DNA from: Chryseobacterium sp. FH1
GTDB taxonomy: Bacteria; Bacteroidota; Bacteroidia; Flavobacteriales; Weeksellaceae
Direction: 5' to 3'
Assembly: GCF_000735135.1 (NCBI RefSeq)
Contig: NZ_JPLZ01000006.1
Coordinates: forward strand, 124,001 to 188,000
Length of the DNA stretch: 64,000 nt
Shown: piece by piece, positions 6,615-7,234 of the stretch
Layout: the number at the start of each line of letters is the position of its first letter
How positions within the stretch are numbered: the first letter of the stretch is position 1
Program-made: the position numbers and the translations under genes
Notes under the pieces: model-generated
Databases searched by the model: none
What the model saw: only the letters and a program-made list of their open reading frames with translations
What the model was told of the DNA's origin: nothing

Positions 6615-6743
6615 AAAATTCCCCTCCTCTGGAGGGGAGAAATTTGAAATTGTAAATTTCAGATTTCGGGGGTGGTCAATGATGCTGGACCACCCCGTCT
6701 TCTCCCTTCGGTCGAATCCACCCCTCCAGAGGAGGGGAATTTT
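6615..6743. repeat. Solo palindromic unit (MITE-like)
   Basis: 129 bp with perfect 23-bp terminal inverted repeats (6615-6637 and 6721-6743) and an inner hairpin GGGGTGGTC (6669-6677)/GACCACCCC (6688-6696). It has no coding capacity and lies between hutU and the DUF559 stop codon. Confidence 0.7.
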
Positions 6744-7158
6744 AACATCCGTAATTTTCGATGATGTAATTTTCTAATTCTTTCATTACCAAAGCCAAAT
6801 TATTCTTTACATCAAAATCAGTAATTCTGAAGACTTTTAAGTTCAGTGATTCTAAATATGTTTGCCTTATGCCATCATAAACTTCTTTCTCATCGTGACT
6901 TGAACCGTCGATTTCGATGATTAATCCGAGCGTTTTAACATAAAAATCGACGATATAGTTACCAATAATTCTCTGTCTGTCAAAATCTATGTTATGAAAA
7001 GTTCTCGCACGAACTTGCTTCCAGAAAAGAACTTCGCTTAGAATTCCGGTTTTTCTTTTTCCGGGTAAAAGCTTTTTGAGGTGAGAATTGTAGGGTAGGT
7101 GTTCAACGAAGTTCCTGCGGATGGGAACTCCGTGGATTTGAGTTAGGATTTCATTCAT
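6742..7158 (-). CDS. DUF559 domain protein (Vsr-like endonuclease fold)
   Basis: 138 residues from ATG 7158. A GTG at 7182 would add 8 residues, but it lies inside the GACCACCCC repeat word, so the ATG is preferred. The protein has the DUF559 pattern: SEVLFWKQVRARTF near 42-55, FDRQRIIGNYIVDFYVKTLGLIIEIDG in the middle (the D of IVDFY and the E of IEIDG are the expected metal ligands), then SSHDE and the C-terminal FRITDFDV. DUF559 is related to the Vsr/PD-(D/E)XK nucleases, so DNA nicking or cutting is likely, but no activity is established for this group to my knowledge. It is fully enclosed by the palindromic repeats at 6615-7234 and is probably functionally tied to them. Confidence 0.8.
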   Translation of the reverse strand: MNEILTQIHGVPIRRNFVEHLPYNSHLKKLLPGKRKTGILSEVLFWKQVRARTFHNIDFDRQRIIGNYIVDFYVKTLGLIIEIDGSSHDEKEVYDGIRQTYLESLNLKVFRITDFDVKNNLALVMKELENYIIENYGC

Positions 7159-7176
7159 TTGTTTGTGTTTTTGAGT

Positions 7177-7234
7177 GACCACCCCGTCAAAAATTCTTTG
7201 AATTTTAGTCGCCCCTCCAGAGGAGGGGAATTTT
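7177..7234. repeat. Direct half-unit of the DUF559 element
   Basis: GACCACCCC at 7177-7185 followed by CCCCTCC-AGA-GGAGGGG at 7212-7228 and AATTTT. Same order and near-same spacing as 6688-6743. Confidence 0.65.

Follow-up and report, generated by a model that had tools for sequence, protein, structure and literature searches.

DUF559 nuclease genes and the repeats that flank them occur together, their types evolve in step, and their arrangement has a preferred geometry. At individual sites both are present or both absent, and they are found in frame inside essential genes. One such unit lies in the window, by which we mean the whole 64,000-nucleotide stretch of Chryseobacterium sp. FH1 DNA that was analysed. 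To judge from their letters, the DUF559-flanking repeats are the known intrastrand-triplex motifs (TM/PIT). The element is probably a mobile or homing-type unit, in which a DUF559 nuclease lies between TM/PIT repeats with third strands that for the most part point to the gene. The pairing of nuclease and repeat across bacterial groups, together with their joint presence inside essential genes, suggests a kind of mobile element that has gone unrecognised.

The original prediction described a single DUF559 gene enclosed by perfect 23-bp inverted termini, with no transposase. Each of these points was borne out: positions 6615-6637 and 7212-7234 form the 23-bp perfect portion of a 26-nt inverted pair (96% complementary), the one gene between them belongs to DUF559 (PF04480, E 8e-23), and no transposase-like ORF was found by eye inside 6615-7234. 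Another 23-bp perfect inverted pair joins 6615-6637 with 6721-6743, and GACCACCCCGTC is found twice in the element, at 6688 and 7177. The palindromic repeats that had been claimed are also there, as three perfect palindromes CCCCTCCnnnGGAGGGG (at 6621, 6721 and 7212) that box the gene, but they are not plain palindromes, since each has a single third-strand tag, 24-31 nt off, on one side only. The tags of units 1 and 3 are turned toward the gene, and that of unit 2, the inner half of the dimer, toward unit 1 (Table 1). In the inner hairpins of the window (6699-6720 and 7186-7211) and of another locus (L059), the sequence varies and the hairpin is kept.

Table 1. Features of the DUF559 element, in window coordinates.
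Feature	Position	Strand	Basis
Whole element, [TM dimer]-DUF559-[TM]	6615..7234		Comparison of orthologous sites
Unit 1 outer palindrome CCCCTCCTCTGGAGGGG, 3' side of gene	6621..6637		Sequence
Unit 1 third-strand tag GGGGTGG, mirror of G-arm with A->T; faces gene	6669..6675		Sequence and mirror test
Unit 2 third-strand tag, CCACCCC on +; faces unit 1, away from gene	6690..6696		Sequence
Unit 2 palindrome CCCCTCCAGAGGAGGGG, adjoins stop codon of gene; units 1 and 2 form inverted dimer	6721..6737		Sequence
DUF559 PD-(D/E)XK nuclease gene, 146 aa from GTG; 138 aa from ATG at 7156-7158	6742..7182	-	PF04480 E 8e-23; 3hrl E 2.5e-14; fold; dN/dS
Unit 3 third-strand tag, CCACCCC on +; faces gene	7179..7185		Sequence
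Unit 3 palindrome CCCCTCCAGAGGAGGGG, upstream of gene	7212..7228		Sequence

Besides PF04480, the encoded protein matched PF18741 below the Pfam cut-off of that family, and gave no match to PF03852 (Vsr) at E 0.001. Catalytic-type residues E44, D73, E84 and D86, among others, were invariant in 23 aligned sequences. The closest fold to an AlphaFold2 model of the protein (pLDDT 83) was that of 3hrl, the DUF559 protein NGO0050 of N. gonorrhoeae (Foldseek, E 2e-5); the second PDB entry was 3r3p, the catalytic domain of the homing endonuclease I-Bth0305I (E 1e-4, TMt 0.79), and the Vsr fold was a weaker match (E 0.12). The gene product had been called a Vsr-like DUF559 nuclease: the family assignment stands, but structurally the protein is closer to I-Bth0305I than to Vsr. 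PADLOC and PHROGs returned nothing beyond weak matches. Among four congeneric genes of the window site, two of an initial six having been dropped for want of the expected start, dN/dS was 0.03-0.07 in the six pairs, with dS up to 1.4. Distant relatives of the E. coli DUF559 protein YcjD in two Rhizobium phages bear a homing endonuclease annotation.

The genome to which the window belongs (3.98 Mb, 12 contigs) has eight exact copies of the 17-bp core, three of which flank the DUF559 gene of the window, and no copy of the reversed control pattern. It also has a second DUF559 gene, both sides of which carry another repeat, CCCTAAAGGG/CCCTTTAGGG with GGGG tags (type B). That an unlike repeat boxes the second gene was the first sign of a general link between DUF559 and repeats. 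The second gene lies within an array of type B repeats (L011 5300-6300, contig C1), with the CCCTAAAGGG core placed in a longer AT-rich hairpin, and several type B loci of other genomes adjoin a DUF72-like gene, as read by eye. On contig C6 (248125 and 248330; L012 2600-2900), a near repeat contains two type A units that have the same orientation and a spacing of 205 bases; the surrounding gene cluster has no DUF559 match and, by eye, looks mobile.

Among 197 genomes of the window's bacterial family, DUF559 matches were found in 102 and the exact core in 108. From a profile list of 145 matches we took 92 loci, to which those of the window's genome were added, giving 94 loci, almost all of them stand-alone genes, that cover 95 matches; 19 matches in long ORFs, 30 weak ones (E > 1e-7) and one second piece beside locus L104 were left out. 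A repeat of one of three types lay within about 600 bp at 87 of the 94 loci and repeats of two types at none. The possibility that DUF559 genes elsewhere lack the repeat, which would have counted against the original prediction, did not materialise: type A was found at 59 loci and the sister types A' (AGAGGGG arms) and B at 28 more (13 and 15, respectively), leaving seven with none. Two of these seven are long-ORF loci (L103 and L135), added for palindromes noticed near the L103 gene and both scored as untyped; type A repeats adjoin their domains but within the larger ORF. Counted separately, 17 DUF559 domains in long ORFs, which include the same two loci (as L043 and L042), comprised four with type A repeats and 13 without a typed repeat within 600 bp. 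The 17-bp core, sought in the genome and its relatives as the prediction had proposed, clusters at DUF559 genes: 138 of 544 exact cores, from 80 genomes, lay within 600 bp of the 94 ORFs, compared to 0.56 expected on the deliberately small genome size of 2 Mb. Tandem or neighbouring DUF559-TM units with shared flanks were seen at L104, L128 (G194) and L093 (G136), possibly through local amplification.

Repeat type follows the nuclease. In a tree of 78 DUF559 proteins, from which 16 of the 94 loci were excluded by ORF length (below 125 or above 320 aa), type B formed one clade (SH-aLRT 99), and repeat type needed seven changes with all labels, or three without untyped rows, compared to 27.3 when labels were shuffled. 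Twelve genomes carry two differently typed DUF559 genes. For nine of them both genes are in the tree, and each grouped with its own type; in the other three (G101, G153 and G163) the tree leaves out one of the two genes as too short.

Outside the family, tblastn searches of plasmid records found DUF559 relatives in 35 records, of which 16 were fetched, and a profile scan of genome contigs found 390, of which the best 80, from at least eight phyla, were kept. Flanks outside the family, read by eye apart from L227-L245, mostly showed CCCTCTCCC..GGGAGAGGG with a GGGTGAGGGG-like tag. A shared-sequence metric, which gave 28 of 75 compared to 9 of 286 at a score of at least 14, was replaced by a polarity test because it misses diverged copies. 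The polarity test supplies its own control by comparing C-arm-first with G-arm-first palindromes within 300 bp; it demands perfect 7-bp stems and so misses imperfect units such as those at L213 and L220, and it skipped five of the 80 genome-contig loci and two of the 94 family loci, which have less than 120 bases of flank. C-arm-first palindromes stood on both sides of DUF559 at 43 of 75 genome-contig, 10 of 16 plasmid and 55 of 92 family loci, and on at least one side at 65, 15 and 71, respectively. Control ORFs of the same loci had them on any side in 11/260, 0/9 and 14/221 cases and on both sides in none of the three sets; G-arm-first palindromes were never found on both sides in any set. 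The both-sided cases, grouped by record title and with only one or two loci in several groups, come from Alpha-, Beta-, Gamma- and Delta-type Proteobacteria, Chloroflexota, Planctomycetota, Spirochaetota, Coatesbacteria, Nitrospirae, Gastranaerophilales and one Bacteroidia bin. The Enterobacteriaceae are one-sided (0/14 on both sides, 12/14 on any side).

The flanking units have the same C-arm, G-arm and third strand as TM/PIT repeats, in the order C-arm, loop, G-arm, second loop and mirror third strand. Read in mirror orientation, the tag copies the G-arm, with A either kept or replaced by T, as the third strand of a purine-motif intrastrand triplex should. The mirror match of the 265 flanking units was 0.911 on the inward side, compared to 0.627 outside and 0.681 with shuffled tags, and 215 units reached at least 0.85; where the arms are asymmetric, the mirror reading was better than the direct one by 172 to 16, with 56 ties. 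The plasmid set gave a weaker signal (25 units, 0.799 inward compared to 0.677 outer and 0.698 shuffled; mirror to direct 9:5, 10 ties). Among units tagged on a single side, inward to outward ratios in the genome-contig, plasmid and family sets were 29:3, 6:3 and 51:3 upstream of the gene and 27:5, 6:3 and 53:5 downstream. Arm and tag also covary: in the family, an arm G went with a tag G in 96 of 97 cases and an arm A with a tag T in 21 of 21, counted over readable tags (22 of 140 units had none) and with units of one locus not independent of each other. On the tree, two changes are needed to account for the A' rows, so the joint change of arm and tag may have occurred twice. This covariation of base triplets (G.GC to T.AT) points toward recognition of the triplex. 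The tags are not of the GTAG kind; family units read GGGGTGG or GGGGTGT, and those elsewhere are mostly GGGTGAGGG-like.

Holder et al. (2015, PMC4666352), who also cite earlier TM/PIT work by Hoyne and Maher, describe G/C-rich TM triplex motifs in more than 260 genomes and count 23 of them in E. coli MG1655. As presented there, the E. coli motif folds into a triplex in vitro, TMs are linked with genome instability, and the parts of that paper on which we draw report no stable TM triplex in vivo and neither mobility genes nor a function for the flanking genes in the neighbourhoods of E. coli TMs (PMC4666352). The same parts contain neither the link to DUF559 nor the geometry and covariation found here. 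E. coli has a DUF559 gene of its own, ycjD, located between sapF and fabI and related to the family of the window gene. A TM lies about 170 bases behind ycjD in a K-12 derivative and agrees in letters and place with motif no. 9 in Table 1 of that paper (MG1655 1,351,239-1,351,204; PMC4666352); upstream of ycjD we saw no TM, only the sapF terminator. The sequence of the ycjD locus was matched over at least 80% in 3333 of 5426 E. coli genomes. In three genomes without it the place is taken by efflux genes, which also figure in the part of PMC12817139 on which we draw. The sapF-fabI site thus holds either ycjD with its TM or efflux genes (L300 compared to L301, L302 and L304), an allele swap at a DUF559 locus. 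The PF04480 profile gave no match in the E. coli control genome; that strain may lack ycjD, or the match was missed.

In 12 of the 80 genome-contig loci the DUF559 domain lies in an ORF that stays open far on both sides, and 11 of these look like true host genes; the twelfth (L228) was rejected as a host because, by eye, its ORF merely reads through repeats. Alignment to uninterrupted solved homologues locates the inserts. In HrpA (L213), residues 206-400 lie between residues 242 and 244 of the 9ggr chain; in ValS (L251), 618-765 lie between 590 and 594 of 1gax; in IleRS (L214), 378-546 lie between 367 and 374 of 9w01. In PriA (L226), the insert spans approximately 122-288. Beyond the insert, the host protein continues. 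The remaining hosts are HrpA again (L220 and L232), ValS again (L265), HydF (L248 and L261), an RsmA/GHMP-kinase ORF (L215) and an ORF with no Pfam family (L250). Within the window's bacterial family, L103 (a type ISP enzyme) and L135 (a type I specificity subunit) serve as hosts. Of the 11 host ORFs from the genome contigs, read partly by eye, nine have repeats on either side of the domain; the PriA insert has the upstream repeat only, and at L232 the downstream repeat is broken. Outward-pointing tags were seen, again partly by eye, at L215, L251 and L265.

Empty sites, which the original prediction had called for in related strains, were found. We searched 18 congeners for the window site, and hutU is next to the thioesterase gene in 11 within the stretch compared. 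The gap between them contains the element in G141, a degraded element in G078 and one degenerate palindrome in G119, where the thioesterase is 97% identical; it is empty in G123 and G054, and in the remaining six it consists of other intergenic DNA without C-arm palindromes. These differences fit either gain or loss. Presence or absence of the insert at conserved sites, as is typical of homing, thus holds for the hutU-thioesterase gap and for HrpA, ValS, IleRS and PriA. In some congeners (L272, L279, L280, L281 and L282), a conserved leader, riboswitch-like by eye, replaces the element between hutU and the thioesterase gene.

Core dose partly separates genomes with the gene from those without. 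The original prediction was open to refutation if the repeat were equally common without any DUF559 gene, which did not prove to be so. Genomes with a type A DUF559 gene (n = 62) had a median of six cores, or four once copies within 600 bp were removed, compared to a median of zero in the 135 genomes without one; five loci in this set (L096, L103, L110, L112 and L135) were assigned to type A by hand, the program having made no type A call. After removal of the gene-side copies the difference was kept in genus g20 (p 0.006), in genus g1 (p 0.003) and in the rest (p 1e-4), p values that ignore kinship within genera. Yet 47 of the 135 genomes without a type A gene have at least one core, and up to 18, and in genus g26 the effect was gone once the gene-flanking copies were removed (p 0.61).

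Because of the fold, the covariation and the in-frame insertions, we infer that the unit spreads by triplex cutting and repair. The nuclease would recognise the folded TM in single-stranded DNA, during replication or repair, and nick or cut there; host repair would then fill the break with a copy of the TM-bounded unit, or of just a TM, in a homing-like manner and with no transposase. On this view solo TMs, which include most of the 23 known from E. coli K-12, are either relics or non-autonomous copies. Of the proposal that DUF559 acts on, or spreads with, these palindromes, the part on spread is supported by the in-frame insertions with their repeats; action on the palindromes is suggested by the covariation and the fold. 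On a wider generalisation our judgement is evenly balanced: these units may form a widespread element class, with members from Bacteroidota to Chloroflexota, whose single PD-(D/E)XK nuclease uses a three-stranded fold as its end signal. Such elements would spread by cutting and repair, with no transposase involved, would insert in frame into essential genes, where the extra segment is tolerated, and would be the source of the orphan triplex repeats of hundreds of genomes, including E. coli K-12, where the enzyme would be YcjD.

The main rival to the mobile-unit reading is a host role, in which DUF559 would be a structure-specific nuclease that clears TM structures in replication and the adjoining TMs a regulatory, perhaps autoregulatory, site rather than element ends. 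We consider this unlikely. In its favour are the low dN/dS between congeners, the usual one or two DUF559 matches per genome at sites that by eye recur, and the reported link of TMs with genome instability (PMC4666352). To judge from the strong purifying selection and the age of the shared sites, the nuclease appears to have long been resident in its hosts and to move rarely; both features are as compatible with a host function as with a selfish one. A housekeeping role leaves unexplained, however, why DUF559 and its repeats should lie in frame in HrpA, ValS, IleRS and HydF, and why there are gene-facing tags on both sides, empty sites and single-palindrome sites.

That the repeats are moved by another enzyme, RAYT or some other transposase, with DUF559 genes as trapped cargo, is very improbable. 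Y1 transposases (the RAYT family) are present in 143 of the 197 genomes, and cores do occur without a type A DUF559 gene, but a typed repeat lay within 600 bp at only one of the 30 best Y1 loci, for which reason we rejected a RAYT origin. C-arm palindromes were found at one of the 29 scorable loci among these 30, on one side (one locus was skipped in this test, for Y1 and for Vsr alike). The type-specific pairing in two-type genomes also argues against a foreign mover, and no other cargo was seen, since none of the 490 control ORFs had C-arm palindromes on both sides. Equally improbable is a Vsr-type mismatch repair enzyme whose gene is a passenger among repeats: it would suit the PD-(D/E)XK fold and the Caulobacter protein VsrA, for which such a role has been proposed and which has a DUF559 domain and is required for the DNA damage response of cells without a cytosine methylase (PMC12907096), but the nearest folds are 3hrl and I-Bth0305I, repeat type follows the nuclease clade, and Vsr genes, present in 36 of the same 197 genomes, had C-arm palindromes at none of the 29 scorable loci among the 30 best, so that we rejected the idea of repeats common to Vsr relatives.

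The mobile unit we favour resembles several known systems. The likeness to RAYT transposases and REP palindromes that had been drawn holds as an analogy but not as membership, as there is no HUH transposase and Y1 genes lack these repeats. Like the REPtrons, which combine a RAYT gene with GTAG REPs, the DUF559 unit consists of a resident gene and inverted palindromes, copies of which are also scattered through the genome; the type of repeat goes with the type of enzyme, and repeats outlast the gene (PMC3733652). In contrast to REPtrons, its enzyme is a PD-(D/E)XK nuclease and not an HUH tyrosine transposase, its repeat is a triplex motif without the GTAG tag, and units lie in frame inside essential genes; flanking and dispersed inverted repeats are there, and the Y1 gene and GTAG hairpins are not. 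Many type A inner hairpins, by eye, read CCCCGTC-hairpin-GCCACCCC, often starting CCCCGTC and finishing GCCA, and so recall the CGTC REP superfamily, described as having a CGTC tag, an 8-9 bp stem beginning AT and a CCA tail (PMC3733652). A consistent CGTCAT unit was not found in the 16 plasmid-record loci. DUF559 may simply be the missing enzyme of the CGTC REPs (PMC3733652), an idea that was attractive at first, but other groups show CCCTCTCCC-type repeats.

With homing endonucleases the unit shares a homing-type fold, that of I-Bth0305I (3r3p) being the nearest after 3hrl, and a repair-driven spread would be alike. Homing enzymes reside in introns or inteins, or stand alone, and we know of none that is bounded by its own repeats. 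Rickettsia palindromic elements are likewise palindromic repeats in frame in protein genes; to our knowledge they carry no enzyme, whereas the DUF559 insert carries a nuclease domain with TMs alongside. These elements are named in the part of PMC3733652 on which we draw. E. coli YcjD, Neisseria NGO0050 (3hrl) and Caulobacter VsrA belong to the DUF559 family or are homologues of it, and the descriptions that we draw on present them as putative nucleases or Vsr-like proteins, with no mention of repeats. Among the CC-licensed articles in PMC, we found none that links DUF559 or ycjD to these repeats.

Through the pairing, DUF559, a domain of unknown function, acquires a candidate substrate and the long-orphaned TM repeat family a candidate partner enzyme. 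The DUF559-TM pairing can be tested in laboratory E. coli K-12, where ycjD is present together with 23 TMs. Should a DNA triplex be what the nuclease recognises, such a dedicated biological reader of a triplex would be a rarity, and in-frame insertion into tRNA synthetases and helicases is one route by which proteins gain domains.
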